Source of the DNA: Gaertneriomyces semiglobifer
Taxonomy: Eukaryota > Chytridiomycota > Chytridiomycetes > Spizellomycetales > Spizellomycetaceae
Assembly (NCBI GenBank): GCA_025558075.1
Contig: JAHLKF010000002.1
Span: forward strand, 1,302,001 to 1,366,000
Length of the DNA: 64,000 nucleotides
Reading direction: 5' to 3'
Under the pieces are notes generated by a model that ran no database searches, had not been told where the DNA came from, and worked only from the letters and a program-made list of their open reading frames with translations. Positions 27,467 to 57,660 of this stretch are shown here, in pieces. The position numbers and the translations under genes are program-made. Position 1 is the first letter of the stretch, and the number at the start of each line of letters is the position of its first letter.

Positions 27467-29948
27467 TCATCGCATGTAAATCCTTAGACTTTCCAAAAAT
27501 CCCTCCAAGTCCTCCCGCTCTACTTCGACAACGCTCATTTCAAAGCTGTCATGTTTGACTCTGGCACCCGTTCGTTGAGCGGCCGTCTGGAAAGCTAGGC
27601 CAAACATGCTAATTTTTGATAAGACAAATTGCGTATGCTGGTGATATATAGATAGAGAACTTACTTTTTCCTGCCACCACCGCCGCCGACGACAACCCAT
27701 CCAGCGTCTCCTTGGTCATTTTCTTCACCGTCGGGAGCTTCAGCGTCGTCGACTTTGGCAGCATGCTTTGCGGTTTTTTCGATTGCCACTACGATGGCGC
27801 CACCTTTACCACGAACGCCCATGGCTTCTTCCAAAAACTGCAACAACCGCATGGCGCGTTCACCCTCTGCAAATACTCCAAACTCGTTGTCGGTGAGTTC
27901 GCTAGAGTTTCCGGCGGACAAGATGCACAGTTGGAAATTGGGCAGCTGTTGGATCAATTTTTTGGAAAGAATGGACGCGCATGCTCGCACGAGGGCTTTT
28001 TGCAGGTGCATGGCAAGGTATATTCCATGAGTGAGTAGCTTGAAACTGCCAACGCGAGTGGGGGGTTAGCAGACGACAGGTAGCTGGTAGAAAGTAAAAG
28101 GTAGCATTCTTTCTTACCTTCCCAAGGCGTCGTAACCCACCCAAAATCTCCTCACCCAATCGCGCTCATCTTCTTCTCCAGACACTGGATTGGCGAGTCC
28201 CATTTCGTCTGGGTCACCGGCAAGAGCAGCCCCGTCCGTTGATACCAAGCCGGTTCGGGTGCCCACACCTACTCCGCGAAGACCGTCAAACTCGCTCTTG
28301 TCCACCTGTCCAGTTTTATCTTCTCGTCGAATGGCACCCATACCACCGGATAGAGAAGTGTTAAAGTCGCTGTCCTCGCCGCCAATCATGGACTCTACAG
28401 TGCTGCTGCTCATGTCCAAAATAGCTGCGAGCGAGTGGACAGCGTCCGCGGCCGACACTACTCCTTTGAATCCAAACGATTTGATAAATGATGGAAATAC
28501 GATTTCATGGAGATTGTAACGGGGTGCGACGGCAAGCAGCGATTTCCGGATCGTTTTTTTGTATTGCAAGGACATTTCAGTATACTTTTGCGATGACTCT
28601 TCAAGAGGTAGCCTGTGAAAAAAAAGCCGTCAGCACCTCTGCGGCGATAGCTCAGCATTCTGCGATTGAAAAAAAAACTCACCCCATTTTGACCAAGAGG
28701 TTTCCTAGACGTCGCTCGCCGCACTCTTTCCATACACCGAGCCTCGTCGCCACATATCCACTGCAGTACATTGCTTCCCAAAAGCTCCAATGCCTGAGCA
28801 ACATGAGTCGCAGTTCATCGTCGCACTTGATGCTACTGTCGTCGCGTTGTCTGCTTGTCGCAGTGTTAGCTGGATTGGAGGATCCGAAGAGTGACTCCAA
28901 GTCGTCCAAATTAGAGTCTGAAGCAATGGCGTTGCCCGCGCTGGACGGGTTCAGTTTGGACACTTCATCTTTATATGTTTGCACCACGGCCAGGTATCGC
29001 CGGTGTGAAATCCGAGAGGACAAATACTGATACGTTAGACCTATAATCGACAGCCATAGAAAGTCGTTTCCAGCGCGACCTAGCTGGCTCGCCATTGCAT
29101 ATAATAGCCCGGCGACGCTCATGCCGTAGTATGTGCCCTCTGCATAGTAATCTGCAATCATGCGTTGCAAACGTTTTCTCCGTCGCCGTGAATCAGAGCC
29201 ACGCAGCTTCTTTAATGGCGGTCCGTCTAGAGACTCGTCCGGTTTTCGTTTTCGTTTTCTCTTGCGTCGGCGTCCCGGTGAGGCGTTGGCGGCGTTGAGT
29301 GCGTCGTCATCATTATCAGCTTCCTCATCATCGTCATCATTATCAGAGACATCATCCTCATCATCTTCATCATTATCAGAGACATCGTCCTCGTCATTGT
29401 CAGATTCGGACCCGCCTTCTTCGAGCTCCTCGAATGCCTGTTGCAGGTCTGCGAGATCATCAATATCTCCATCGTCCATGAAGAGGACCTGATCGCTTCC
29501 AAAAAGGCCGTGCAAGTTGAGCGGTCGATGCGAGTCGCAGACGTAGACTGTCATTTCATCATTGAGACTCAGCATTTCACTTAAATCGACGAGACCACCG
29601 CAATTGAGGAGAATGATGGAGCGGAGCTCCTCATTCTCCTCAATATGCAACGAGTTGGCCGTCGAGAGATCGGTATATCCACTGACAGGAACGATCTTGT
29701 GAGCAATGTAGTCCGACTTGAACAGCGTCTGTTGGAATAGATGGGGTGTGAGTTTAATGAGCGCTCGGAGAGATGAAGAGTTCACAGGTGAAAAGACTTG
29801 CCACGAGCATGTTCAGGGCACATAGTGCGTCGACATCGTTGGTGACAAAGATCAGGACAGTACATGCACCCGTCCCATGATTCTTGACGGCCTCGGACGT
29901 GATGCGTTTATAAACATTGTCCAAATTCGCAAACGAGACATGTCCCAT
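27467..29948 (-). CDS. CDC45: DNA replication initiation factor Cdc45
   Basis: DHH-superfamily-derived subunit of the CMG replicative helicase. Starts MGHVSFANLDNVYKRI at the ATG at 29948, with VLIFVTNDVDALCALNMLV, then after an intron TLFKSDYIAHKIVPVSGYTD, IILLNCGGLVDLSEML, VYVCDSHRPLNLHGLFG. A long acidic insert of NDEDD repeats and a basic stretch precede the conserved region YYAEGTYYGMSVAGLLYAMA, LLRHWSFWEAMYCSGYVATR, and after further introns the C-terminal DHHA1-like part (GFKGVVSAADAVHSLAAIL, LRIYMR end). The first intron, 29729-29801, begins GCAAGT and ends CAACAG, a GC-AG intron in phase 0. 5' upstream sequence is occupied by the left copy of a direct repeat. Confidence 0.94.
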
Positions 29949-30203
29949 TGTATATGTATCTGGTGTCCTGAAATGTCCAGTCATCGTTTCCGCCGACCAA
30001 AAGTCCACTCGCGCGTTACCCCTCCTCCAATGCTTACATAATGCATAAAGCATGACTTTCACGTGATATAAGAGGTCCGATGCAGATCGAGGCGTGCAGC
30101 GTAAATAGACGACTCGCCTTCCACCAAATGTCAAGTCCTTCGGGACCTCTGACATCAAATAAATTGGAATCGATACAGAGAAGATTAGCATGGCTCCCTG
30201 TGC

Positions 30204-30515
30204 AAGGATGACACGCAATATCTGAGATTGGATAGTACCTTCGGGTACCTAATTTTTTCTTCATCGCAGGCAACCGCCGTTCAGACGCAATATCTGAGAT
30301 TGGGATAGTACCTTCGGGTACCTTTTTTTTTTCTTCATCGCAGGCAACCGCCGTTCAGACGCAATATCTGAGATTGGGATAGTACCTTCGGGTACCTTTT
30401 TTTCTTCATCGCAGGCAACCGCCGTTCATAAGTAAAGTTAAAATAAAAGGCAAGCACGGCGACGGAGGAACTGGTCCCCAAGCACAAATTAGAAAAAGGG
30501 GGGCGAAAGGACCTC
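30204..30515. repeat. Left copy of ~0.3-kb direct repeat flanking the serine-recombinase region
   Basis: Begins AAGGATGACACGCAATATCT and ends at GGCGAAAGGACCTC. Internally it is three tandem units of about 70 bp, each with ACGCAATATCTGAGATTGG, a GTACC-TTCG-GGTAC hairpin, a variable T run and CTTCATCGCAGGCAACCGCC, followed by a unique tail. The same structure recurs in the same orientation at 37447-37769, differing mainly in T-run lengths. Confidence 0.92.
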
Positions 30516-30878
30516 CTTCGGGTAGACCCGGCTGAGAGTTCGGGCTGACCCGGCTTGAGACGACGATACAGAGAAGATCACATGACCTTCAAAATTAGGG
30601 TTGGGTCTTCGAGTCACGTGCCTTCATTATTCGAATAGCCGAGAGGTCGAACATGCGTTAGGTTTCCATAATTAAATTGGTGGGCACAATGGGAACGGGA
30701 TGCAACGTACCGTTGATCTTGATGAAGTGTACATGTATATATATATATAATGACATTCAGTTATGAATGTGTCTGTCCGCATGTCACATAGCATTTCCGG
30801 CCGAAGCACATTCTGCTGACATGCCTGAGCGTTCGTTCAACTTGCCACACTTGGCCTCTTGATCTTGTTCTATTTCAA

Positions 30879-32551
30879 CGGAGTCCTCATTCCTCTGCAT
30901 GCAACCCTCTCAATTTCAAGCTCATGTGACCGCAACTCAGGTTGCTGAATTTCGAAGGTTGCCCTGATCAGTGGTTTGGGAACGCTTACGATTACGCTGC
31001 TGTTGTTGACGCCTGATCTCGCCGATGAACGGTAAGTTCGCCGATCTCGGGCGCATTCACCTGCATTGCCGCATTTCTCCTCTCTGGCATGCAGTACACT
31101 GCTCATAACCTATGATCTATCATCAGCGGAACAAAACACCGCCCTTTCAATTTCGGTGCTTTTTCCAAAGAGTAATGTGAGCGGTGGTGGTGCGAGCAGT
31201 AATGCAGTGATATGAGCGTTCAGTGGGTCTAATATAGGGGGTATAACAGACGTTCTGCTGCCGATCAGCAGAATGTCCCCCAGAGCATCGGGAAAGAATG
31301 TCAAACAGCAATCTATGAGGGAAATGACGCCACCGACTTCCATCAGCATGTTCAGTAAAAACGTGCGATGGAATGACCTGCAAAATGTGCTGAGGCGCTC
31401 GAAAAGGAATGTCAGAAGGAGGTAGGTGCTTTCGGTTTACGGGTGTGGAGAAAGACATAATGCATTCGTACAGAGCGCTTACCAGGAATGGTGCCGCATG
31501 ATGGAATGCGCAGATCGTTGGCCACATCAAACTGTCGAATTCCCTTGCAGCCTCTGGGAAAAGGGCCCGTCGACGTTAGAGCACCGTGGAACCGGGCGTT
31601 GGACGCAGCTTCAGATGCTGCTGCTGCTGCTAGCGTCGGCCATGTTGCGGATGCCGCGTGCGAAAAGGAGTTGTAAAAAAGCAGTGTTCCCTGGAACCAG
31701 AAGAAGCGCTACTGAACAAGTACTTGTCCTCAACGTCGGCAAGCTTATCTGCAAAGGCTCTCGAAGGCAAATCAGTCTCTCAATGGCATATCGGTCAACT
31801 TTCGGTGACTGTCGGTGGAACTGCAAATTGCGACGGTGGACCGACCGGTCACCGTCAGTTGACTGAGAAAGCCATAGCACATTCACCGCTGACTGCCAAT
31901 CGACCGAGAATTGACTGATTCACTGTACATATAACATGTATATGTAAGTTGACTGATAATCCACTTATTTCAGCTCCGTCGGTTGACTGACGGTTGACCG
32001 CAATTTGCCATGGTGCTATGGGTGATTCGGTATATAGTATCGGCGGATTATCGGTCGTTGACAAGTTTACTCTCAGCTGACTTCAATTTATCGGCTCGAT
32101 GTTCTGGGGGACATTCCGCTGTATGTACTGGGGTATATGGCCTTTGCATTGGACCCACCGGACGCTCATATTACGCTTATATCACTGCATACACCGCCGA
32201 CCGCTTGTATTAACCATCAAAAACACCAATGAAAACGCCGCGAAACCAACAGTTCGGTTGAATTTCAATGAATGCGGCCTATGGTGAGCTGCAGCGCGCC
32301 ATGCAGTTGAGAATTGATCTTGAGACATGTCGGCGTAGATCTTGATCATAGGTTATGAAAAGTGTGTTGCAATGCCGGTTAGGCAAACGCGGCAATGCAT
32401 ACACCCGAGATCTGCGAGACTCCAACACTCTCCATCCATGTTGCTGGATCTGGAGGTTGCGCTGATCAGTTGATGCGAACGCGTACCTGACGCTGACGGT
32501 TGATCTCGCCGATGACCGGACGAGGACGCTGCAGAGGAATGAGGACTCTGT
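30879..32551. repeat. Inverted-repeat (fold-back) segment, likely non-autonomous DNA transposon remnant
   Basis: The ends carry GAGTCCTCATTCCTCTGCA at about 30879-30897 and its exact reverse complement at about 32533-32551. Further inside, diverged inverted matches pair about 31080-31290 (CATAACCTATGATC, CAGAATGTCCCCCAGAGCAT) with about 32090-32360 (GATCATAGGTTATG, TGTTCTGGGGGACATTCCGC). Part of the arms also match as direct repeats (TGATCTCGCCGATGA). The core is rich in TTGACTGA-like motifs. No transposase is visible inside; similarity of the arms may extend outward to about 30.78 and 32.76 kb. Confidence 0.65.
31471..31673 (+). repeat. Dispersed ~200-bp repeat, left copy of an inverted pair
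   Basis: Runs from CAGAGCGCTTACC to GCGAAAAGGAGTTG and is about 85-90% identical by eye to the reverse complement of 40226-40418. Contains a GCT microsatellite of different length in the two copies. Confidence 0.88.
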
Positions 32552-33787
32552 GAAAAAAGAGGCAAATTCTCATGCAAGTGTGGCAAGCGAGGCAAAATTA
32601 AAAGAGGCAAAAAGGAAAGTCAGCCTGTAGGAATGTGCCCAGAAATGACATTAATCAACGTCTGATGGAACATCTTGGCTTCAAATGCGCTTGGGTACAT
32701 CTGAATTTGAACGGATGTCCTCGGCCGGAATGTGCTGATGAGTGTCAGCGGAATGCATTGGCAAATGCATCGGCAAATGCTGTTTGATGTGCCGACAGAT
32801 GCTGGCGCGAAATGTTAACCCACAATCAATATCAGTCTCGCGAACGCGTGGATCTTGAAATTGACATCCTGCTGAGAGAACACAGGGTCATCATCAAGGC
32901 ATTGTGTTAACGTCGGGCATCCTTAGGGACATCCGTCGGAGCTCCCGGGTCAGCTTTTAGTATCTCGCCCGTTTGCCACACTTCCCGTATTTTATTGCCT
33001 GTGCATTTGCCGCCTCCGTCTGCTCCAACTTCCAGCCTTTCCTGCAATTTGCATTCACCACCAAAATGCACCTTTTTTATGGCATCGAGGAGAGGGGATC
33101 GTGGACATTGATTGAGCGCTCTGTGGTTGTACAATGCAATGCCCCTGAGGCAGTATGCGCTGTATTCGCACTAATGGTACCTACCGTGCGACGGATGACC
33201 AGCCATAACGCATATTTCAGGCGTGGACTGCAACAGGACATGGGGGGTATAGGTAATACTCTACCCAGTCGGCATCCAGATCCAGTCTACCGAAAAACAT
33301 TGGGAATGCCATTTTCCATGTGTGTTCGCCATCCGTGACAACTTGGGAGGTACATGTTATTAATAAAGAGACATTCGGCCATTAAGTAATACGGGCGGAC
33401 TTTCGGATTATGTAAACACACAAAACGGTCGCGTTTGAACTGTCAAACGCGCTCGCAATTGAACTGTCTGTCAACTGTGTCTGTTTTTTTTTGAGCGGCC
33501 GATGTCTACACAAATGCAGGCCGCTTATCTTGACAGCCCGAAACCCCTCCGTCAATCACTGCAGCTCAGGCCATACTGGTTTGCACTGATTGATGGACGA
33601 GTGTCGTTTGTCAACATAAAAAGAGCCCGTTTCTCCTCCCATCGCTCGTACTCTCAACCCTTTCTTCAATAGAACGATCAACCAATAACTTCCAAACACC
33701 ACAATAACGTTTTCAACTTGCGATAATAAGCGTGCAATAGAGTGAGAGATTCCTTGCACGCTTGGTCTGGCAACAATTCTTAGAAAG
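32552..33787. other. Noncoding region upstream of the serine-recombinase-like gene
   Basis: No supported gene. A 121-codon open frame at 32973-33338 has no coding character that I can defend. A poly-T tract stands near 33485, and 33.55-33.78 kb is likely the 5' leader of the downstream gene. Confidence 0.5.
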
Positions 33788-36700
33788 ATGAATCCTTCAG
33801 TGAGGCGCCAGCTCGCTCGCCTCAACATCGATGAACCCGAAGAGGCCATTACGGCCACTCCTCAGAGCAACGACTACGCCTTGCTGGACGTCAGTGAATT
33901 GTCCAGCCTTGTTCGGGCCCTCCTTGGCGGATTCTTCGGGCCCAGTTTCGAGATCGCCATCAGCCCTGCCATCTTCAGATTCGTGATAAAAACCGCCCGG
34001 ATGCACGTTAACATTGCCACACTGGATGTTGTCGACTGGGAAGGCTTGTCCAAGTGGTTGTCCCAGCAAGACAAGTTGCTGCGGCACCGACTCGTCTCCA
34101 ATGAATCCGGCACGTTCTTAGAGCTCTTTGTTCCAGTGAGCAACCCCGACTCCTCTACGCCTCATTGGAATGCGTTCCGCAAGGATCGGCTCTCCGGGAG
34201 TCAATTGATGAGCTTGAAAAACGCCACGGGCGCCCTATCATCCGATCGTCCTCAATTGATTGTCATTCACGCTCATGGGCGTCTTCTGCCGGTGCCCCTT
34301 CCAAACCCTGACGATTTAGGCACGAACACTCGGAAAGCTTGCGAACGAGTGCAGTTGATTGTCGGCTACGTAAGGGCCACTTGCCTTCTCGCACCATCCG
34401 CAGTGGTGCCTCTCATTGCAGAATTGGCTCCATTGAGTCAATCGAACCAGAACATCCTTCTTCGTTGGCCTAGCGCACCAGCGCTTTTGCTAGACGCTCT
34501 CGCAGGTGTTGAAATGATAGCCAATGGTGTAAACGTCGCGCCCTGGGTCAGGATGGCCATCGAGACGCCTTGGTTTCCGAATGGCACGCACCTTCGCCAG
34601 CATCTGTCAGAAGGCAATATGGCACACACGTTCCGTAAGAGCACGCATGTTGAGGACTACTTACGAAACAATGGTTATCACTTTGTCGCTGTCAGGCTGA
34701 AGTACGTGTGGACTCCCGATCGCATTGGCTACGACCAGACTTCAGTCATTTTGCCCCAGGCTGCTCCCGGCATCGATCCCATGGCCTTTCGCACCACAGA
34801 TGGCTCGCTGTTTTATAGACAAGTGATTATCTTGCAGCAACGAGTCGCAATCCGGCGCAGCGTCATCCTTGTCTCATCTCGAACCATCAACGCCTTCACT
34901 CCTGACAATATTGTGGAAATCCTCGTGGCCGCTGCGAGGCAACTCAAGTGGTCCGGAGGTTCACCTGCTATCACAATGAACCGTTTCGCGATGACTGTAC
35001 CTTTGGAGTGGACCATGTTCGGGGAGAGCAGGTTGTTTCATTCGAACGGAAGTCTGAACACTCATCTAGCCTCAATGCGTCTGGTGCAGCATATGCGAGA
35101 CCTTGGACAGTTTGGTCTCTTTGGCGAAGGCCCCCAACAGCAAGAACAAGAGGCGCCAGTAACTACTGCCCCTCAAGATCGGTTGGAGGGTTTGAAATCA
35201 GCAGTGAGCGCCGCGGACCTTGTCATTTTGTACATTCGCGCATCTACCGTTCAGCAAACGGAAACGTCAGCAGGATTGGAGCGCCAGATAGTCTCAATGG
35301 TCGAAGACCTGCGTACTGCTGCTCCGCAAAACCTGCTCGTCGGGGTAGAATATTGTTCGACGAGCCAACATCCCTGGAAAGACCGGAAGTTGATGAAACT
35401 CCTTTACCGCCAAATCCAGGAATTCCGCAATCCGATCTTGCTCACCGTCAACGCAGATCGCTTGACCCAAAGAGAATCTGACCTTGAAGCCATAACTGAA
35501 GAGTTTCACTCTCGCAATCTGGTTTGGTGGGCTCAAGGAAACGTTGTAAACCCAGCCACGTGGCAACAATTCAGTGCTCATCCAGAGCTGACGCACCAAC
35601 TCCTGATTGGACGTGAGATGGCCATTCAGCACGGCTTCTACACCCGCTGTGTCGCCGTTCAACTGCGCATTAACAACAGCGCCAGCGACAGCAGCATTAC
35701 TACCATTTCAACTTGGATGCGAGAAGTCTGTCGAGGTCGACGGTTGGTCGGCTTGGTTCGAGTGAGCCCGAGTTTTCGTGTCAGTGAAGACCCACCTACA
35801 AACAATAGTCTGGATCGTCAGGCGACATTTTTGAAAGCGCTCGTGGGTCGTGGTATTTCGCAGTGGGAACGGTTACTTGGTGTCTCTGCGTACTCCGGAG
35901 AGGCACTGGACAGGCTGGAGACAACCCTTGCTTCATTTAATGAATCGTGCGTGGTGGTGCTGCCGTCAGTGGATCGTCTCATTCGCAAACCGGAGCAGTT
36001 GCCGCGACTCCAAGCGATTTTGGCCGCAGGGCAGCACATTATTGTGTCGTTCTTGTGGTCGTATGACTCGCTGGATGTGCTGGGCGACGACGATGATGAG
36101 GGTCTTCAATGGATCTCATCTGTTTCTGTCAATGCTGTTAGCTACTTTGATCAACGACGCATTGGCAACAACGCGCTGGCTCTGCCAGTAATATGGCCAA
36201 TGATGTGGTTCAATGGTGAAGACTGCAACCCCGCGGTGTTCCATGCTGCGTCAAAAGCACAGGATTTCATTGCCGGCTTTCGGACATCTTCCTGGCAAGG
36301 AGACCGACAACTAGCCATTCCACAGGCCTTGCAAGGGCTGAATACCAGCGGTAAGCGTGGGTTTCATGATAGGCAAAAGGTCGCTTGGGATCGCTACATC
36401 AGAGGACAACTTCCAAACACCAATCTCCTCGGCCTTATCGACGTCCCGAGCACAGCTTGGATCTGTTCTTGCCCAGAAAATAGCGCCAACCACGATCGTG
36501 ACTGCGTCTGCGATTGCATGAAATGCACCGCCCATCGCTGGGCCGCGTGTTCCTGCAGCAGTCACGAGATAGTCCGAACGGCCAATCGAACGGCTATGAA
36601 GCGCCTTCCGGCCGAGATATGCCGTTGTTCCGCTGCCTGTCCTTGTATCTGTGAATACTGTCACAAGGAGGGGAGTGCGGCCAGAGGAAAAAAACGGCAA

Positions 36701-37360
36701 CGGGCAGAGTTCTCTGATCCGTCGACGACGCAGTCGAGTCAATCGCAGCAAGGAGCAGTATTTTCGTCTCCGCCGTCTGCGTCTGAACCCATCTCGGAGC
36801 GAAACCCTCTGTCTCCTCTAGAACTGGCATCATCTCAACATTCTGAGATAACCAGCGACCTCTTGCCTCCAGCAAGTTGGCCTTCGACTGCTGGGCCTTC
36901 GACTGCTGGGCCGTCGACTGCTGGGCGTTCGACTGCTAGGCGTTCGACTGCCGGGCCCTCAACTGCGGGGCCTTCAACTGCGGGGCCTTCAACTGCGGGG
37001 CCTTCAACTGCGGGGCCTTCGACTGCTGGGCCTTCAACGGGAGTGCGCATGTGTGAGGTTCCAAATTGCCCCAACCCTGCTCCAGTGGGTGGCGGCGGTG
37101 GGAAGAAGTGCCCAAGCTGTTACAAGGCTGCCTTGCAAGCACGGAAGGTGGCTGCCGGTGCAAATTACTGTTCCCGGCCCGGATGCCCAAACCGTGTGCG
37201 CAATCAGAGGACAACATTTTGCAGCGTAGAATGCTATGTGCAGCAGACCCCGAATCCAAAACGCTGCAGGGACTGCGACAAAGTGGTATTGCCAGGATTT
37301 GGCAACGCCTGTGAAACGCATGTCACCCGCACCAAGCGGGCAAAGAAGGCGAAGAAGTAG
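33788..37360 (+). CDS. Large protein with two tandem serine-recombinase-like catalytic domains and a Cys-rich C-terminus
   Basis: Uninterrupted 1190-residue ORF, no intron needed. Residues 1-470 match nothing I recognise. Residues 479-600 look like a resolvase/invertase catalytic domain: YIRAST (candidate nucleophile Ser486), LERQ (Arg499), Arg533, and LLTVNADRLTQRESDLEAI (DRL motif at 557-559). Residues 652-760 repeat the pattern: LVRVSPS (Ser660), LDRQ (Arg677), RLETTL (Arg709), VVVLPSVDRLIRKPEQL (DRL at 729-731). A Cys-rich region near 890-970 (CSCPEN, CVCDCMKC, CRCSAACPCICEYC), a (STAGP)n linker and a terminal zinc-binding-like module (CEVPNCPNP, CSRPGCPNR, CRDCDK) follow. Direct repeats flank the gene. 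Probable recombinase/transposase of a mobile element; function inferred from motifs only. Confidence 0.75.
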   Translation: MNPSVRRQLARLNIDEPEEAITATPQSNDYALLDVSELSSLVRALLGGFFGPSFEIAISPAIFRFVIKTARMHVNIATLDVVDWEGLSKWLSQQDKLLRHRLVSNESGTFLELFVPVSNPDSSTPHWNAFRKDRLSGSQLMSLKNATGALSSDRPQLIVIHAHGRLLPVPLPNPDDLGTNTRKACERVQLIVGYVRATCLLAPSAVVPLIAELAPLSQSNQNILLRWPSAPALLLDALAGVEMIANGVNVAPWVRMAIETPWFPNGTHLRQHLSEGNMAHTFRKSTHVEDYLRNNGYHFVAVRLKYVWTPDRIGYDQTSVILPQAAPGIDPMAFRTTDGSLFYRQVIILQQRVAIRRSVILVSSRTINAFTPDNIVEILVAAARQLKWSGGSPAITMNRFAMTVPLEWTMFGESRLFHSNGSLNTHLASMRLVQHMRDLGQFGLFGEGPQQQEQEAPVTTAPQDRLEGLKSAVSAADLVILYIRASTVQQTETSAGLERQIVSMVEDLRTAAPQNLLVGVEYCSTSQHPWKDRKLMKLLYRQIQEFRNPILLTVNADRLTQRESDLEAITEEFHSRNLVWWAQGNVVNPATWQQFSAHPELTHQLLIGREMAIQHGFYTRCVAVQLRINNSASDSSITTISTWMREVCRGRRLVGLVRVSPSFRVSEDPPTNNSLDRQATFLKALVGRGISQWERLLGVSAYSGEALDRLETTLASFNESCVVVLPSVDRLIRKPEQLPRLQAILAAGQHIIVSFLWSYDSLDVLGDDDDEGLQWISSVSVNAVSYFDQRRIGNNALALPVIWPMMWFNGEDCNPAVFHAASKAQDFIAGFRTSSWQGDRQLAIPQALQGLNTSGKRGFHDRQKVAWDRYIRGQLPNTNLLGLIDVPSTAWICSCPENSANHDRDCVCDCMKCTAHRWAACSCSSHEIVRTANRTAMKRLPAEICRCSAACPCICEYCHKEGSAARGKKRQRAEFSDPSTTQSSQSQQGAVFSSPPSASEPISERNPLSPLELASSQHSEITSDLLPPASWPSTAGPSTAGPSTAGRSTARRSTAGPSTAGPSTAGPSTAGPSTAGPSTAGPSTGVRMCEVPNCPNPAPVGGGGGKKCPSCYKAALQARKVAAGANYCSRPGCPNRVRNQRTTFCSVECYVQQTPNPKRCRDCDKVVLPGFGNACETHVTRTKRAKKAKK
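36881..37038. repeat. 15-bp coding minisatellite (STAGP units)
   Basis: About ten copies of a 15-bp unit CCTTCGACTGCTGGG and variants, encoding Ser-Thr-Ala-Gly-Pro repeats between the Cys-rich region and the final zinc-like module of the recombinase-like protein. Confidence 0.92.
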
Positions 37361-37446
37361 TTGAGGCCATAGAAATCAGTGTTGTAGATAGAGGTCAACG
37401 TAGCTGGCACCTGTCGAGTAGAACTTTAGAACCTTATTCTTTCAGG

Positions 37447-37769
37447 AAGGATGACACGCAATATCTGAGATTGGATAGTACCTTCGGGTACCTAATTTTT
37501 TTTTTTTTTTTCTTCATTGCAGGCAACCGCCGTTCAGACGCAATATCTGAGATTGGATAGTACCTTCGGGTACCTAATTTTTTTTTTTTTCTTCATCGCA
37601 GGCAACCGCCGTTCAGACGCAATATCTGAGATTGGATAGTACCTTCGGGTACCTTTTTTTCTTCATCGCAGGCAACCGCCGTTCATAAGTAAAGTTAAAA
37701 TAAAAGGCAAGCACGGCGACCAAGGAGCTGGTCCCCAAACACAAATTAGAAAAAGGCCGAAAGGACCTC
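37447..37769. repeat. Right copy of ~0.3-kb direct repeat flanking the serine-recombinase region
   Basis: Same start (AAGGATGACACGCAATATCT), same three internal ~70-bp units with the GTACC-TTCG-GGTAC hairpin, and the same tail as 30204-30515, in the same orientation. It starts only 87 bp after the recombinase-like stop codon. Confidence 0.92.
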
Positions 37770-38689
37770 AAGGACTTGTATACAGGCACCCTAAACCTAA
37801 CGCGTAGCCCCCTTAGATACATATGTAAACTGGACAAATCCAAAGTCCGCCATCATTCTGGATCTACGACCTTCAAATTCACTGCACATGCAGTTGCCTG
37901 TTAATTTTAAGGCAGGAAGCTTTTGCAGCATTCTCTCTTATGTGTCTCCCTGCCAGAAACTAGACGGACTCAGCTCAGAGCTGTTACATAAGCTATGTGA
38001 TCACGCGTGCACACGAACGGACAACTATCTCCTTATTATATTTAGAACGAGCATTGCCAACCCGTGCTGGGATCACGGGTAGATCTAGTTCAAATTCAAC
38101 CTGTTAAGTTACTGTTCCGACGCATGCTCATAGTGCCTGTTTGTATATGTGCAGACTGTACAGGCTTCTGTACATTCCCATGCGATGCAATTTGTGTATT
38201 CATTCGTGTAAGAACTCCTGTGTGCCCGGTCGCAAATGCCCAGCGCGCACGGCTGTTCCGATCTCCAGACGTACCCGTAGTTACCCCGTCGGTGGCCGTC
38301 GCTGGTGCTTGCGCGACAACAGTTTGCACAGGCAGAACTGGACTGTTGAAGTTAGCTCGCTCGCTGCCTGTTCGCTCGTGACTGGGCCACCCCACTGACG
38401 GGTATATAGTTATTTAGAACAATTTAGATGCCACACATGAGAAGCAATTCCGAAACTTTAAATTTACAATTTTCGGGTAGCACACAACCTTAATTATCAC
38501 CGTCACGTGCTGGCTTTCCCAGCTCAAATTCTCAAAGCTGCAACTTTTTCATCATCCACTTACTGCCAGTATAAGTATAGCCGTCCGGAATATCACTGAA
38601 TATTTAATTAGCACACAACGTCTGATGAGCCGTACTCGAAACCTGCTCTCTCTGCAATCGCCATTGTACATAAAAAGTCGGGAGCGGAT
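37770..38689. other. Intergenic region, no gene recognised
   Basis: Only short overlapping frames on both strands. Nothing supports a coding or RNA gene. Confidence 0.55.
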
Positions 38690-39991
38690 ATGAACTGCTG
38701 GATTTGCGGCATTCCATGGTGGAGTCAGCTACGCGATCGTCATGCCAAAGTTGTCGACTTGTCCTTCAAGGAGCGGGAGGAATTTGAGTATCGTGATCTC
38801 GACCAGTTGTGGTTCATGAATGGAGTCATGGTAGCGTCGGACCATGTCACATCTCCTGGAACGATGAGTAGCCGCTGGATATTTTGGCGCTCGGTACGGT
38901 CCGGGTTTGATCTGGATAAATTGCTTGGAAAGGGATACAAGGTGGACCATAATCCGGATTACTATGCCCGTAGTGAGCAAGGGGAGCATGAAGTGGACCG
39001 CACGGGCGGCCCGCCATATGTCTGCAATTGGACCGATGAGGACGACGACGATGAACGTGCCGAGACGTTTTATTCGGTGCCTAAGCCGTGGCTCAACAAA
39101 GGTCCTGATCTCCTTGGGAGACGGTACAAAGATGGCTTACCAGACCTCGGGGTCTTCTGGCCGGCACATTTTGGATGTTTAATGTTGGTCGCGGCATGGA
39201 CAGGCAACCTCGCGTGCCCGCAGGACATATTTAAAAGGGACGGTTGGACACTTCTCGCCCACCGTCAGAAACTTCCAGCCGATCGAGAGACAGTTTGGTT
39301 GGATGACCTTCCCACAGAGCGTGAAGAACTGCCGACTCGCCTCCTTGACTATGGCCCGCTCCAACATCACGACGTTATATATTACCCCGAGCACAGAGAT
39401 GATAAGAAATGGGGCACCTCGATATTTCGTAGCCGCGAGTTCGTCGAGGGAAAAGGATACAAACAAACTCGATACATGTACCACTATTATGAACAACTAG
39501 GTTTATTATGGTGTTTGCGGCGGCCAGACCTTTTCCCGGAGCCCATGCCTCGCAATCCCGATGAACCGTCTAATATCTGACTCGACACCAACAGAACAGG
39601 ACTAGGATCCCTGGCTTTTTTGCCCGACGACCTCCTTTCTGACATCCTGGCCTACGTTGCGTCGTCATCCGAAGGGTTTGCGCCTCTGATGCGCACATCG
39701 TCCAAATTGTACGCCTTCTTTGGCGGTGCTCCAAAGGGTACAGATCCGCACGCGTCTCCGCTCGCGCAAACTCTATACAGAACCCGCTGCGAGTACCTCG
39801 GTCTGGTCCCTACCAAAGTGGATTTGAAACGAACCGCAAACAATTTTCGCAAAATTGTTGCCGCGGGGCCTATCGATTGGATTCGCTACTACTCAGATTG
39901 CAGCAAATCGGAACATATGCGTAACCGGGCCCGGATTCGGCGGATGGTCAGAAGGATCGTGGAGATGATGGATAGTTTTGAGGAGGCGTAA
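38690..39991 (+). pseudogene. F-box-like lineage-specific protein, copy A, with in-frame TGA
   Basis: Unrecognised family with an N-terminal CWICGIPWW zinc-knuckle-like motif, a ~250-residue middle part, an F-box-like helix (LPDDLLSDILAYVASSSEGF) and a C-terminal module (RTRCEYLGLVPTKVDLKRTA, then SEHMRNRARIRRMVRRIVE). The two open frames 38690-39577 and 39581-39991 are in the same phase, separated only by TGA at 39578-39580. Copy B on the other strand reads through the equivalent point, so the stop looks acquired. An intron could not be fitted. Function is unknown; F-box members usually bring substrates to SCF ubiquitin ligases. Confidence 0.6.
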
Positions 39992-40225
39992 TATTGTGAG
40001 AACTTTAAAAGTTGATTAACCCAGTTGATCAATGCGCCATGTTGGCCATGTTTTCAGAGCGTATCTTCTGAAAAAGGTTTACATTACTTTTTGGTCAAGT
40101 TTCATTTTTGGCGTAATAGAAAGTTTTGGGGTGGATAATTGTAAATTTCGGCCAAAATGTCCAGCCCATCACATGGATTGGTTGCGAATGCCTCCAAACA
40201 TGATAAGCATAAGAATTTGGAATTT

Positions 40226-40418
40226 CAACTCCTTTTCGCATGCGGCATCCGCAACATGGCCGACGCTAGCAGCAGCATCTGAGTCCAACGCCCGGTTCCA
40301 CGGTACTCTAAGGTCGACGAGCCTTTTTCCCAGAGGCTGCAAAGGGAATTCGACAGTTTGATGTGGCCAACGATCTGCGCATTCCAATCATGCGGCACCA
40401 TTCCCCGTAAGCGCTCTG
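40226..40418 (-). repeat. Dispersed ~200-bp repeat, right copy of an inverted pair
   Basis: Reverse complement of 31471-31673 with a few indels. The pair encloses 8.5 kb holding the recombinase-like gene, both its direct-repeat neighbour on the right and F-box-like copy A. Confidence 0.88.
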
Positions 40419-40634: not shown

Positions 40635-41900
40635 TTAGTTAGTTAAGGACCATGGTGGACCCACATTCAGCTTTTCCCATAGGTCACGAGCGATGCGCCG
40701 TATCCTGGCTCGATTCCTCATGCTCATAGATGCCTTGCAGTCATGGTAATACCGGCCCCAGTCCAGACATCTCGAATTTCGCTCAGATTCTTCCAAACTT
40801 TTTGCGGTTACTGCCGCAGCTGTTCTTCTGGTGTCAACAGCGGTGGGGATCCACCCGAGCTCCTCGCATGCTTGACGCCAAACTGGGGCTACCCAATAAT
40901 GGAACAGGTTGCGCCATCGTGAAGACCCGAGAGGCTTTCTCCAAGTCTTCCAAAGAGAGGTACCGTGCAATTTCGAGAAAAGCATCCGCATGTATGGTAT
41001 GTATACCTGGGCAAAGGTCCACTTCTCTAATACCTTCATTGCGAAGCAAGACGTCATCAAATTCGTAAAGTTCCGGAAACCTGTCAGGTCTTACGAGCAT
41101 CCACGGTTTAACACATGGGTGAAGTAAGATGAAGCTTCCATACGGATCATCACCCGGTACGTCCCAGGAATGCACACAAAATTGCAGGGTTCGCTTATCC
41201 TGAGGGACAATACCACCATAGTCAATGCCTGATACGTGATTTCCTTGGACATTGTGACATCCGGGAAATTCCTGATCTAAATCACACAGCACGCTGGGCA
41301 CCACCGTCCCAGGATCATCAAAGTATTCTTCGGTGATTGTGACTCGCTTGTCCAAAAAAATATCATGCCGAGACTCCAGTGGCACGTTATGCCAGGAGCA
41401 CGCTAAATCCAAGCAACCAGCGCGTGGGCAGGCCGCGGCTGTGGACTCCTTCCGTGTTCAAGATATATCTTCTCTAGCCCAGGATGGTCGGATGCAGAAC
41501 TACGGATCAGAGACCAATCAGGATCAATCATAACAGTCGTATCCTCTTCATCATCGGGGAGAGCCAAAGGTGGTAAGCTTGGAATGAGGAATCTTCCCGC
41601 GTCGGGCTCATACTCATAATTGACCCGGGCATCTGGCCAAGGAGTCACGCCAATGAGTGAGGTGTTCTTTGCATCTAACGCGCGGGCCAGCATGGACCAT
41701 GTTCCGTCGCCAGGGCGGATCTCCGAAAAGGAGGGGTCTAATACTCCAGCTGATAGGTACACCTTGACAAGCTCGTACACGTTGGTGATAGGACCGCCGC
41801 AGATGAGACAGCAAGTGTGAAACTCTACATGTGCCGGTAGACCCTTTATTTCCTTCGGAGGCTCATAATCCTCCCATTGATGAGCGTCGTCTTCCTCCAT
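40635..41900 (-). pseudogene. F-box-like lineage-specific protein, copy B, frameshifted
   Basis: Paralogue of copy A: N-terminal CLICGGPITNVYELV, middle part with GDGTWSMLARALDAKNTSLI, then LVRPDRFPELYEFDDVLLRN and LCPGIHTIHADAFLEIARYL (F-box-like), and the C-terminal module RQACEELGWIPTAVDTRRTA with SMRNRARIRRIARDLWEKL. The frame changes near 41405-41420 and again near 40900-40915, and no GT-AG introns fit either place, so the gene appears broken. Points toward copy A (tail to tail). Confidence 0.6.
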
Positions 41901-48298: not shown

Positions 48299-51200
48299 TT
48301 AACACATATCCTCTAAAATACTGTGTCCAAAAGGCCACAATTGTTTCGTTTCTTTATCGTACACACCCTTCAACTTGTCTTGATCAAACGTGATCTTTTT
48401 GAAAAAACGCCGACTCGTCATATCACGACCCATATGATACGTAAAGGTGAATTGTGGCACATCAACGGTTCTGTCGGACAAGAGAATCTCCAAGGCGGTG
48501 TTGAAATTGAAGATTTTGTTGTGAGCCACTTTGAGAGAGACACCTTTACATTTGAAGGTAGTGTAGCCGTCGTCACCACGTAACCCATACGTCTTGGGTC
48601 CCAAACCGACAAACTCACGAATCCCCTTATGTTTCTTTTCAAACTTGTCCACTTCCTAGTCTCCCCAGATATCACCTGCTGGTACAAAATCCTTGGGCAT
48701 ATCGGGTGTCTTTACATAAATGATACTGTCAGTGTCATGCATAAGAACGTTGGTATCGAGCTTGAGCATTTGCTCTAACAGTAGGAGGCGTCCGTATGCT
48801 GGAACAAAGATGGCCGCTGGTATGTAACCCTTATGGAGATCAGGTCGGCTTTTTTCCCGATTGTGTTTGTATCGGAACAACGTGTACTCGTCCAAAGCAT
48901 CATAAGAGCTGACACGGTTCGTATCGTCAGCTACTGTTTGCATGAAGCGCGACACATCTTCATCATCTTCTTCATGAACAATGATGCTCTGTTGATGGTC
49001 TACAGTCTCAGCATGCTTTCCCCAAGCACTGTTGAAAAGAATTTTGAATGTCTGTTTGACAGCTGGCATGTTTCGGAACTTGGTGGGGTCGATGTCCATT
49101 CCGAACCTTTCTAGGTACTCGTGTTTGAGTCTCTGACCTTCTTCTTCAGACCGAAGCTCCCCACTGTTGTACAGTTTGAGTTTGTACAATTCGTGCAACA
49201 AACCCGACCATTTAGATGGTGCGCGCTTGTACTCGTGAAGGCGATAGACTCGAGAGATCTTGTATCCACAGGTGACCGCTTTTTGTAACTCGACCGAAGT
49301 GAAAACACCCTTGTTCAAAGGTTCCAAGGTCGCCAAACACTTGTTTTGTGTATGATCAAAGTGGACAAGGACAGGGTGGTATAAATCTCTTGGAGGTGTC
49401 ACATCGCAACAGATGATCCCGAAAAAGGTTTCTAGGTATTGAGGTGTGGGTTGTTCAGCGTGTTCAATGACATGGATGCGCCGATTACGAGTTCGTTTCC
49501 TCTCTTCAATATGACATTTGCACCCATCCAACGGTCGATTGAAATGTTTGTAACAAGGATAGAAAGCATCATCGTATATATGTATGATGGGCGGCCCCAC
49601 CGGATAATCGTTGACCACTTGGACAAAAGGATACATCGACACCACATCAATGTAGGAGATGCGCTCTCCACGTTCCCAGTCAGCATCAGAAACACGATGG
49701 TGAAACTTGCGAATGTCCGTTCGACCACCGCGGAGCGCAGCACGGTCAAAGTAATGTTCTTCAGCTTCCAAGGCGCACCAGTTGTCGTATGCTGATTGAG
49801 CCACACTGTCAGGATCGTCCAGGTCGAGCTCCATCATCTTACTGTTGTATCGTAAAAACAGATTGTGGACATAACCTGCTGAGGTTGGGTGCAACCATGG
49901 GGAGATAGCAAGGTCTTCATCGAACGCGGCCAGGTTTTCAGTACAAAGATCGTGGTATTTGCGAGCAATCTGAACCAAGACCTCCACGTCCTGTTTACAG
50001 TACTTGACTATTTCATGGCGAAAGTTCCAATCGTTGCGCCCCATCCAAGTAGCGTACCAGTCGTTGAATTCCTGTAACTCGGCGGCGTCGCGACAACTGA
50101 AACTCAGGTCAAAGAAGCTCTTGTCCGGAATAGGTCCCACATAATGCTGATTTTCGGGTGTGTTAAACAGATGAGGGAAATGTCCCTTGTCAACATCCGC
50201 ATTATTAGGAAAGAAATCATTTGCCAGATCCTTCAAACGACCTTTCAAATGGAGCATGGTATCCAGAAAGATCGTATTCCCAACTTGGAGACGCATGAAC
50301 TTTCCGCCGCGCAAGATCGGTTTGATGCTGGTGGCTAAGCCGGTCATCTTGATTAAAGTGTTGAACAATAACCGTGAGTCGTATCCGCTAGCATTGTGTG
50401 CAAGACAAATGTTTTTACCGTCGTTGTGTTGAAGCATGAAATGAATAAACTCCTCTAGAGAATCCACAACACAGGTGTCGCCAACATGGTCGAAAAGGTT
50501 CCGGTAACAGACAAGATTGGGTACTTGAGTTTGTTCCGTTACGGTGTATGTTCTGACTTTACCCGTCTCTTGATCCAAGACAAAGTTCCCACCCTCATCC
50601 GATATGAAATGGAGAGATTCCGTATCCGGCACAGGTACTAGACAACTCTCAATGTCGTATGCCCAAACCATGTACTGGTCCTTTTCACCCTGCTCACCGT
50701 GGGACAGAAACGTAGGTTTGTGTTGGGCAAAATCTTTCCATATGGTACATCGGTGCGATCGTAGTTCCGTAAAATTAACGTCCAGATAGCAAAATTTGCA
50801 CTTCATCACGTTACATACATGGCGATGTTTTGGTGAATAGGAGATGCCGCACATATCACATATTTTGTTTTCCACGAAACGTGCCATCTTACGAACGTAG
50901 GGCTCTCCAATCTCGTCGCAACAAGAATGTCCAGCGACTGCAAGAAATGTGCTGGAACATCGACTGCACCAGCTCCAGTTCTGAGCTCGTCGCATATGAC
51001 TGATAAAGGCGGGAGGCGCATCCACAGAAACATAGTGACGTTTGACTTCGTCCAAGTGAACATACACAATACGGTTGGGTAGGGCGTCATAATCATAATC
51101 TACCCCTGACCAATCGTGCATTGCCATGGACTTGAGCGTGGGGATAATCAACACGATACGATAGGCAGAATAGTCAGGGTGTTTGACAAAATCCTCCAAC

Positions 51201-51886
51201 TGGGCAATGGTCACTTCTTGAGACCAACCCAGTTTTGTCTGAAGTGCTGCAGCTTCACGAACCATAGGCGTGCCCCGAACTACCATCATTCTTCCCGAAG
51301 GGTATAGATCCGGGCGGGTATAGATGAGGTGGAGCATGATCGCCACAGCGGCGCAAGCAACCGGTTGATCATTGTGATAATGGGTGGTGAGAGATGCTTG
51401 GCGAACACCTTTAACTCCACGCAGACCTCTTTTTGTTCCCGCACCAACATTCAGAGTATCGCGTTGAATGTAGTAAGAATAAGCGATGGTGTAGATGGTA
51501 ACTTCGGTTTGTGAATGTACTGCCCGTTCCAACATATCATCAAAGCGTCGATCAGTCACATGATGTAACGCTACTCCCGTTTCATTTACTGTTACCGCTG
51601 GGCCATCCACATTTCTCAGTTGTAAAAATCCATGGACGCGAGTCATGATTTGAGTTGGTGTCCAATTCGGTAGGTACGCTTGAAGCTCAGCAAATATTCG
51701 ACTCCGAAAAGATATCCCAAAAAGAGCTCGAACCCGATCATCATCAATCGCTTGATCGTTACCCAAACGTATAGCACGCATCGTAATTTCGATAGGACGA
51801 CCATCTCGTGCACGGCGAACTGTCACCTCATAGGTAGGTGTCCTGGCTGCAGAAGGTTCAACCACTTGAAATGGTACTGTACTCAT
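48299..51886 (-). CDS. polB: Protein-primed family B DNA polymerase, interrupted by one in-frame TAG
   Basis: Replicative polymerase of Polinton/adintovirus/linear-plasmid type. From the ATG at 51886: N-terminal unknown domain (1-300), Cys/His zinc-binding pairs (CSRC 307-310, CDMC 343-346, CKFC 363-366), exonuclease motifs YDIES (410-414), HNASGYD (497-503) and YCKQDV (629-634), then polymerase motifs DVVSMYP (747-753), KQTFKILFNSAWGK (944-957) and HDTDS (1050-1054). After residue 1076 a TAG (48656-48658) interrupts the frame. The next 118 codons in the same frame (48299-48655) carry the conserved C-terminal region IREFVGLGPKTYGLR and CKGVSLKVAHN. All catalytic residues precede the stop, but the thumb end would be lost. 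Pseudogene, readthrough or assembly error cannot be separated here. An ATG at 51928 is not used: the frame there is GTG-like and close to the TATA box. Confidence 0.92.
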
Positions 51887-51947
51887 CGCTGACAATGGTG
51901 TGTATTTTCTGTTCAAACTATGATACACACAAAATAGTCGAACATCT

Positions 51948-54003: not shown

Positions 54004-54960
54004 TTAATTATCCAGAAAGATGTACTGATCAAAATTCTTCATAACACGGAGTTTTTTCGGCTTCTTGTAGTTGATGTACATAAAATCGTAGTCCTGTTCT
54101 GTGCAGTACCTATATGCTCGCACCCACACTTCCCAAGTCATTCCGCAAGTGTTCTCTTCATAAAGCGCTTTCAACTCGGATTCATTTGTCACTTCAAAAA
54201 GAATCAAAGCGGTAAGGTTTACCCGCACGGTTTTGGGGATCTAGTAACACAAGTGTTGATATACTATATCGTCGGAGTTAGGTAATCAAAAAAAACACGC
54301 TCGTGTTTTGCTTACCTCACGGTACGCTTGCGAGACCAAGAGCAAACTGGCAGACGCGTGTCCATGATTCGTGTTCAACATTTTGAACACACTCTGTCGC
54401 TTATTGCTGAATAAGGTACTACCTACAAGATCATCAAAAATGATCAACCAGCGGTTTGCGAGGTGTTTGGTTCCTCCCAACCCTTCTATTTCTTTGATCA
54501 TGTCCCGCTGCTCTGTAAGCATGTCATCCAACGTGGACTCATCGTATTCGCTGATAAAGTGACTGTCTGGTATATGCGGGTTGAAAGGTTTGTTACCCTG
54601 ATCGATGATACTGGGTCTTCCCACCACCGGATTTTCACTCTGCCCCTTCTTCTTTAGAAATTTGACGAGTTGTGTATTTTCGGCTAATAACGGTAAACGG
54701 CGGACTGTTTCCCACTTTTCGTCACAGTGCAACGTTGGGCTGAAGACCGTGATAACGTGGAAGTAGCCCTGATAGAATTTGAGGATGTTGCAGATAAGCG
54801 TTGTTTTCCCACTCCCTTTCGGTGCAATCAGTCCGGCTGTAAATTCGTGATACGGAAGAACATCGTCGCCGATGGGTGGAGGAGGGTGATGCGCTGTTAC
54901 AGGCAGCGGAATGGGCCGCACCTGTAACTCTTGACGGTTTGAGTGTTTCCGCGGTGCCAT
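54004..54960 (-). CDS. A32/FtsK-HerA-type DNA packaging ATPase, with one intron
   Basis: Virion genome-packaging motor ATPase of Polintons, polinton-like viruses and nucleocytoviruses. Exon 1 is 54316-54960 (215 codons), exon 2 is 54004-54240, and the 75-nt intron has a GTAAGC donor, a CTAAC branch-like site and a TTACTAG acceptor. Together they give 293 residues. Walker A APKGSGKTT at 46-54, Walker B LIIFDD at 172-177, sensor-like SLLLVSQAYRE at 205-215. Exon 2 continues without a break in family sequence: IPKTVRVNLTALILFEV, then TEQDYDFMYINYKKPKKL and a FDQYIFLDN end. Without splicing the protein would stop nine residues into the intron and lack the last quarter. Divergent from the HNH-containing gene. 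Confidence 0.92.
54241..54315 (-). other. Spliceosomal-type intron inside the viral packaging ATPase
   Basis: 75 nt, phase 0, GTAAGC donor and TAG acceptor, same length class as the host introns in this window. Both sides match the ATPase family in one continuous protein. Confidence 0.88.
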
Positions 54961-57273: not shown

Positions 57274-57327
57274 TTGTCACAGTGCAGACCGACATTGCAT
57301 ATGCAATGTCGGTCTGCACTGTGACAA
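57274..57327. repeat. Perfect 54-bp palindrome
   Basis: Arms of 27 bp meet without a spacer between 57300 and 57301: TTGTCACAGTGCAGACCGAC then ATTGCAT, mirrored as ATGCAATGTCGGTCTGCACT then GTGACAA. It separates the truncated viral gene from the tandem repeats. Confidence 0.95.
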
Positions 57328-57660
57328 TGGACATTGTTGAGTCATATGGACATTGCTGACTGACAATGGACATTGCTGGCTCAAAATGGACATTGTTGAA
57401 ATCTGGGTTAATTTCGCATATTCTTTGCACTGACATTCTCAACCCGAAATGGACATTGCTGGTTCAAAATGGACATTGCTGAAATCTGGGTTAATTTCGC
57501 ATATTCTTTGCACTGACATTCTCAACCCGAAATGGACATTGCTGAAATCTGGGTTAATTTCGCATATTCTTGCACTGACATTCTCAACCCGCGACCATTC
57601 TGGACATTGCTGAAATCTGGGTTGAGTTAGAATATTTTCCTTATGTCAATCTTAACCCGC
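57328..57660. repeat. Tandem repeat array with GGACATTGCTG core
   Basis: Four main units of about 70-90 bp, each with TGGACATTGCTGAAATCTGG, GTTAATTTCGCATATTCTTT, GCACTGACATTCTCAACCC. Short TGGACATTG motifs are further repeated between units. Each unit has GGGTT and AACCC near its ends and can fold on itself. Confidence 0.9.

Follow-up and report, generated by a model that had tools for sequence, protein, structure and literature searches.

Serine recombinases are normally enzymes of bacteria and phages that carry one catalytic unit per chain, and a chytrid gene that appears to join two such units in a single protein raises the question of what that protein is and how its gene came to lie where it does. 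Here we address this question for a gene at 33788-37360 in a stretch of 64,000 nt from Gaertneriomyces semiglobifer (NCBI GenBank assembly GCA_025558075.1, contig JAHLKF010000002.1, positions 1,302,001 to 1,366,000, forward strand; this whole stretch is the window, and all coordinates count from its first letter). The product, P0001, is very probably a double-domain serine recombinase. The best explanation of the locus, to which we give an even chance, is a chytrid mobile element with a single-chain paired serine recombinase that integrated at the internal-stem-loop site of the U6 spliceosomal RNA gene and left one U6 whole.

The recombinase gene, its protein and its relatives

The open reading frame (ORF) runs on the forward strand from the ATG at 33788 to the stop codon at 37360 and encodes 1190 aa with no internal stop, in an assembly of 20.86 Mb and 66 contigs; a first-pass annotation made from the sequence had described it as intact, and so it is. 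That annotation had also proposed two tandem resolvase-type catalytic domains in one chain, which profile searches bear out: PF00239 (Resolvase), the sole significant Pfam family in P0001 (STAT_linker also matched, insignificantly, at E up to 10), matches two stretches of the whole protein (E 1.5e-7, 32 bits) and reaches E 3.8e-9 (37.2 bits) with the core, residues 479-800, alone. Searched separately, half 1 (residues 479-634; E 1e-4, 22.8 bits) and half 2 (residues 635-800; E 0.0037, 17.8 bits) fall below the curated cut-off of 23.3 bits. A DNA invertase family in PHROGs gave consistent but weak matches (0.0018 for the core, 0.035 for the whole protein), and two further PHROGs families matched at about 0.2; a PDB sequence search with P0001 matched no recombinase, and the N-terminal 478 residues hold no significant Pfam family. 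The parts of the gene, with reference to the Phlyctochytrium arcticum relative P0002 described below, are as follows.

33788..37360, forward strand: uninterrupted ORF of 1190 aa for P0001, the probable tandem serine recombinase (PF00239, relatives)
33788..35206, forward strand: N-terminal part, residues 1-473; aligns to P0002 from residue 82, with no Pfam family above cut-off
35216..35641, forward strand: catalytic domain 1, residues 477-618 (PF00239, 1e-4); Ser486 codon at 35243-35245
Key residues of domain 1, forward strand: Arg484, Arg533 and Asp557-Arg558, kept in all three proteins that cover them
35735..36067, forward strand: catalytic domain 2, residues 650-760 (PF00239, 0.0037; model matches); Ser660 codon at 35765-35767
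Key residues of domain 2, forward strand: Arg658 and Asp729-Arg730-Leu731-x-Arg733, with no Arg45 equivalent in the alignment
36188..36397, forward strand: stretch after domain 2 conserved in the alignment, residues 801-870 (WPMxWF ... SKAQ ... SSWQG)
36455..36673, forward strand: Cys-rich module 1, residues 890-962; cysteines invariant in P0001 and P0002
36879..37035, forward strand: 15-nt in-frame tandem repeat that codes for STAGP repeats; it lies between the two Cys-rich modules, and P0002 lacks it
37046..37327, forward strand: Cys-rich module 2, residues 1087-1180; identity to P0002 is 54% over residues 1087-1187

Searches of about 5.8 billion proteins returned three relatives of P0001, all from chytrids; as each protein search scored only the roughly 8,000 candidates that shared most words, the family may occur more widely. 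P0002 (P. arcticum, 1035 aa; E 4.4e-186, 42% identity; 30 bits against PF00239) aligns with P0001 residues 82-1001 and 1087-1187, both Cys-rich modules included, and this alignment agrees with the earlier description of a long N-terminal part and Cys-rich C-terminal modules. P0003 (578 aa; E 6.5e-41), encoded on a 4.9-kb contig of Chytridiales sp. JEL 0842, spans residues 288-824 with identity at 165 of 504 aligned residues and scores 18.5 bits with PF00239, below the cut-off; its deposited sequence has Val at the position of Leu559 and is missing a portion of domain 2 that includes the D-R-Q motif. The third, P0004, is a truncated P. arcticum paralogue, matching P0002 at 225 of 264 aligned residues, that stops after the first motifs, keeps R484 and S486 and has no PF00239 match. 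At the DNA level, no relative was confirmed in viral contigs or prokaryotic genomes, a tblastn search of the core against 50,697 phage records gave only seven matches (E 3-4), which we take as chance, and a plasmid search gave none. Within the G. semiglobifer genome, searches with P0002 and P0003 found only the P0001 gene and a relic on contig C25; a genome search with PF00239 gave no match at E <= 0.001 and is uninformative on other copies because it missed the P0001 gene itself.

The catalytic motifs follow one another as Y482-I-R484-A-S486, L497-E-R499-Q500, R533 and D557-R558-L559 in domain 1, and as L656-V-R658-V-S660, D676-R677-Q678 and D729-R730-L731-I-R733 in domain 2. Each R-x-S motif supplies a candidate serine nucleophile (R484-A-S486, R658-V-S660) and is kept in P0001, P0002 and P0003; R484, S486, D557, R558, R658, S660, D729, R730 and R733 are identical in all three, so that the expected conservation of Ser486, Ser660 and their arginines is seen in every protein that covers them. 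The motifs first read from the translation hold for R-x-S, (E/D)RQ and the D-R-L-x-R of domain 2, the last complete in all three proteins, but one detail differs in domain 1 of P0001, which reads D-R-L-T-Q-R: Gln561 occupies the Arg71 position (+4 from the Asp), with the conserved Arg562 beside it at +5. P0002 and P0003 have Arg at both positions, and their domain 1 motif is complete (D-R-V in the latter). In domain 2 of P0001 and P0002, both proteins that cover the position, there is no Arg at what we take to be Arg45, a position set by alignment to Gin, Bxb1 and phiC31; the invariant Arg533 lies near this place in domain 1. The fused dimer envisaged in the first-pass annotation stands as two domains in one chain, yet its halves, judged from these residues, are unequal, half 2 being without Arg45 and half 1 of this copy without Arg71. 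With Gln561 in place of Arg71, the P0001 copy may be weakened, though relatives keep the Arg71 residue. In one study, R8, R68 and R71 are the arginines that were observed, or have been suggested, to hold the scissile phosphate (PMC4499144). When the halves of P0001 were aligned with each other alone in MAFFT, the motifs did not line up, and that alignment was not used.

Structure prediction speaks for half 2 only. The full-length model is too low in confidence for use (mean predicted local distance difference test score, pLDDT, 29.7); the core model has a mean pLDDT of 48.7, with ten-residue means of 51-81 over domain 2 and 44-64 over the first 80 residues. The best matches of the template-free domain 2 model are solved serine recombinases, and the resolvase fold expected of each half is thereby predicted for half 2; the half 1 model, whose matches mix unrelated folds, is too weak to judge.

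The U6 gene and the repeats around the recombinase gene

The relation of the P0001 gene to U6 was absent from the first-pass annotation and is new here. The following features define it.

30130..30257, forward strand: U6 spliceosomal RNA gene (Rfam RF00026, 65.7 bits, E 2.4e-14)
30204..30515, forward strand: left direct repeat, made up of U6 from nt 75 onwards (its 3' half), the U6 3' end twice more, and flanking sequence
30564..30578, forward strand: 15 nt that match the U6 word CGATACAGAGAAGAT exactly, a little way inside the left end
31062..32399, no strand assigned: long, transposon-like imperfect inverted repeat that lies between the left repeat and the P0001 gene; several contigs carry similar stretches
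37361..37446, forward strand: 86-bp tail between the P0001 stop codon and the right repeat, the proposed right end of the element
37447..37769, forward strand: right direct repeat, made up of a U6 3' half that lacks the 5' half, the U6 3' end twice more, and flanking sequence

Beyond this gene, no further U6 gene was detected in the 20.9-Mb assembly, in a search that scored 47 of 1036 first-look candidates. Homology between the two repeats, which lie in the same orientation, runs from U6 nt 75 (AAGGATGACACGC...) through the array into about 85 nt of flank; substitutions affect 6 of the 307 aligned positions, and there are also length changes, mostly in T tracts. As the right copy lacks the U6 5' half and begins 86 bp past the P0001 stop codon, direct repeats that start inside U6 enclose the recombinase gene. 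A 19-nt word at the junction occurs exactly at two places in the genome only, the left and right repeats; with 3 mismatches it occurs at three other places (one for a reversed-pattern control). Both arrays contain the U6 3' end three times, the repeated units beginning at ACGCAATATC. In the left array an extra G is common to units 2 and 3, which suggests homogenisation within that array. A reading of the array as a Helitron end (hairpin plus CTAA) was given up when the array turned out to be the U6 3' end.

The centroid of the computed U6 fold pairs nt 59-87, and the fold is no more stable than those of shuffled sequences (z -0.34). Around the break lies the U6 internal stem-loop, an imperfect dyad of the kind to which recombinase subunits bind in pairs. 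The break also falls at a known transposon target. According to the available text of one study, Dada-U6 transposons, which encode a DDE transposase, sit between U6 fragments 1-70 and 65-104, produce a 6-7 bp target duplication (GCGCAA or GCGAAA in its 6-bp form) and carry at their ends a subterminal CAGAGAAGA, a word also present in U6 (PMC3706591). In the Rfam U6 consensus, GCGCAA lies directly 5' of GGAUGACAC; the repeat homology begins at U6 AAGGATG, which matches the Dada-U6 site GCGCAA/GGATG and places the break within the 6-bp site (GTGCAA in this U6). The 15-nt U6 word at 30564 contains the CAGAGAAGA of Dada-U6 ends, located at 30569. No other match to the U6 5' half in the interval is as long, and 12 control segments of the window gave at most 11 nt on either strand. 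The word could be what is left of a second U6 5' half, or it could belong to a recognition site. A clear second 5' half at 30516-30600 was considered and rejected, its gapped alignment to the U6 5' half being no better than random (51, against a mean of 49.9 and a highest value of 61 for 300 random sequences of like composition). Rfam at E up to 10 reported no U6 across 30258-38700, which says little because it also missed the certain U6 3' half at 37447.

Further signs of mobility come from elsewhere in the genome. The relic on C25 is a decayed, internally deleted copy with stops and 76-80% protein identity over residues 911-1116. Between it and the P0001 gene, 34 of 357 aligned positions differ in the stretch 36512-36870, distributed 7/6/21 by codon position, a pattern that suggests constraint on the protein through much of the period after the copies diverged. 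Since the U6 repeats differ at 2% of aligned positions and this stretch of the gene copies at 9.5%, the P0001 copy would have reached U6 after its split from the C25 copy, if there was no reset by gene conversion. The mobile element proposed earlier gains the decayed copy and the U6-derived direct repeats as signs of mobility. Its proposed right end is at 37446, and the 86-bp tail before it is unique in the genome. As a candidate left end, the upstream region in common with the C25 relic aligned weakly (score 59; the best of 100 shuffles reached 51.5) and without a sharp edge; a 34-nt motif at 30999 and 32487, the copies of which flank the nested repeat, was set aside because C4, C11 and the surroundings of the C25 relic also contain its core. 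A repeat of about 200 nt (31471-31677 and 40223-40418, inverted orientation, 89% identical) also flanks the P0001 gene on both sides, with further copies on C25, C33, C9 and others.

Integration at U6 and its rivals

We propose that the P0001 gene encodes the integrase or transposase of a chytrid mobile element. With the two catalytic domains covalently paired, one chain would bring both halves, which in bacteria come from two subunits, and the domains may work as a pair; the Cys-rich C-terminal modules, the N-terminal part or both may bind DNA. The element would have integrated into the internal-stem-loop region at about U6 nt 74/75 by serine-linked cutting and rejoining, leaving direct repeats of the U6 3' half on both sides and one complete U6 at the left; it may have carried, or duplicated, the U6 3' half, by which U6 would have stayed whole. 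That the P0001 enzyme itself made the U6 junctions we regard as evenly poised. A bolder reading, possible but tentative, sees a new superfamily of eukaryotic elements in which a single-chain paired integrase inserts at the U6 internal-stem-loop dyad and a carried U6 3' end rebuilds the host's only U6. Bacterial elements integrate into tRNA genes and restore them, and under that bolder reading the U6 element would be their eukaryotic counterpart.

Several observations weigh against integration by P0001, and the first of them fit its chief rival, a local duplication, which we consider rather unlikely: U6 and its 3' flank would have been tandemly doubled by unequal exchange, the second copy split or stripped of its 5' half, and the recombinase gene arrived there independently. 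The repeats share the three-unit array and about 85 nt of flank, which fits such a doubling as well, and the 15-nt word of the U6 5' half at 30564 lies just past the left repeat, as expected of a second-U6 remnant. Apart from that word, however, the supposed U6 5' remnant aligns no better than random while the U6 3' half is unchanged, and the break lies within the known Dada-U6 site, at a distance of 86 bp from the P0001 stop codon; this distance and the break position lead us to favour integration over duplication. It also counts against integration by P0001 that the C25 relic has no U6 sequence in 9.9 kb of its surroundings, and that Arg71 is replaced by Gln in domain 1 and Arg45 is absent from domain 2. 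These last changes would suit a host gene, domesticated or in decay, with two recombinase domains that have lost the ability to recombine DNA, as would the single intact copy found in the genome; we think this improbable, in that the nucleophilic serines and phosphate-binding arginines are kept in three species at 30-45% identity and truncated or decayed copies in two of three genomes resemble a mobile family. It is also quite unlikely that another U6-targeting transposon of the Dada type made the junction, with the recombinase gene as cargo or neighbour. Such an origin would account for a junction at the Dada-U6 site and for the CAGAGAAGA word at 30569, but Pfam finds no DDE family in P0001, and the only ORFs of at least 150 aa between the repeats are P0001 and one overlapping it (smaller ORFs were not scanned). 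Nor is there a 6-7 bp target duplication like that of Dada, the U6 side reading GTGCAA and the right junction CAGGAA, although the genome was not searched for Dada elements.

If integration at U6 by a paired recombinase is what happened, it would allow an element to occupy an essential RNA gene without harm, like the bacterial elements that reside in tRNA genes, and U6 would have been found as an address by two unrelated enzymes. The fused catalytic pair, conserved across chytrids, would offer a natural single-chain recombinase for testing concerted half-site cutting and possibly a tool for targeted insertion.

Neighbouring genes and comparison with known systems

To the left, the replication gene CDC45 (28679-29785, reverse strand; PF02724, 3.8e-100) lies on the opposite strand and runs away from the U6 gene; an adjoining ORF, up to 30218, reads like the start of CDC45 and has no Pfam match. 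To the right, short ORFs at 39620-39991 (forward) and 40635-41060 (reverse) have the motif RNRARIRR in common and may form a small family of duplicated genes. Near the end of contig C2 lies a virus-like gene set (48656-51928, reverse; 54286-54960, reverse; 59246-61606, forward) with a DNA polymerase type B, organellar and viral (PF03175, 9.7e-37), a Pox_A32-type ATPase (2.2e-7) and a Prim-Pol primase (3.1e-26) with DUF5906. This set looks like an endogenous polinton-like or related viral element, within which dense tandem repeats on TGGACATTGCTGA of several period lengths occupy 57322-57660; no link between the set and the P0001 recombinase was seen.

Among fungal site-specific recombinase-type elements are Crypton and Starship, and Starship elements use tyrosine recombinases. 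Crypton elements likewise use tyrosine recombinases, according to the available text of one source (PMC3212892), whereas P0001 has no tyrosine recombinase, PF00239 being its only significant Pfam family. The Dada-U6 transposons, for their part, use a DDE transposase, and P0001 would be an unrelated enzyme at the same U6 place; their hosts, as far as the available text describes them, have multicopy U6, whereas one U6 gene was detected here (PMC3706591).

With the serine recombinases (resolvases/invertases and large serine integrases), P0001 shares catalytic-domain homology, motif order, the Ser nucleophile, R-x-S and D-R-L, and direct repeats lie around its gene as they do at the borders of integrated serine-recombinase elements. 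It differs from the known enzymes in its two catalytic domains per chain, N-terminal extension of about 470 residues, Cys-rich C-terminus and eukaryotic host, and it contains neither a Recombinase nor a zinc-ribbon domain of the large serine integrases (Pfam, E up to 10). The available text on IS607, whose elements combine the TnpA serine recombinase with TnpB or Fanzor2, gives TnpA one catalytic domain and an N-terminal DNA-binding domain, unlike P0001 (PMC2715888), which has no NCBIfam match to the IS607 family profile at E up to 10. Eukaryotic serine recombinases of the IS607 type are described there for Saccharomyces kluyveri, with six genes (PMC2715888), and in the available part of a second source for some Fanzor2 elements (PMC3627910). 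Among the open-licence PMC titles and abstract openings listed, none concerned a chytrid or tandem-domain serine recombinase. Set against the portions of the literature examined, in which eukaryotic serine recombinases are otherwise of the IS607 type, P0001 represents a new variant of these enzymes.

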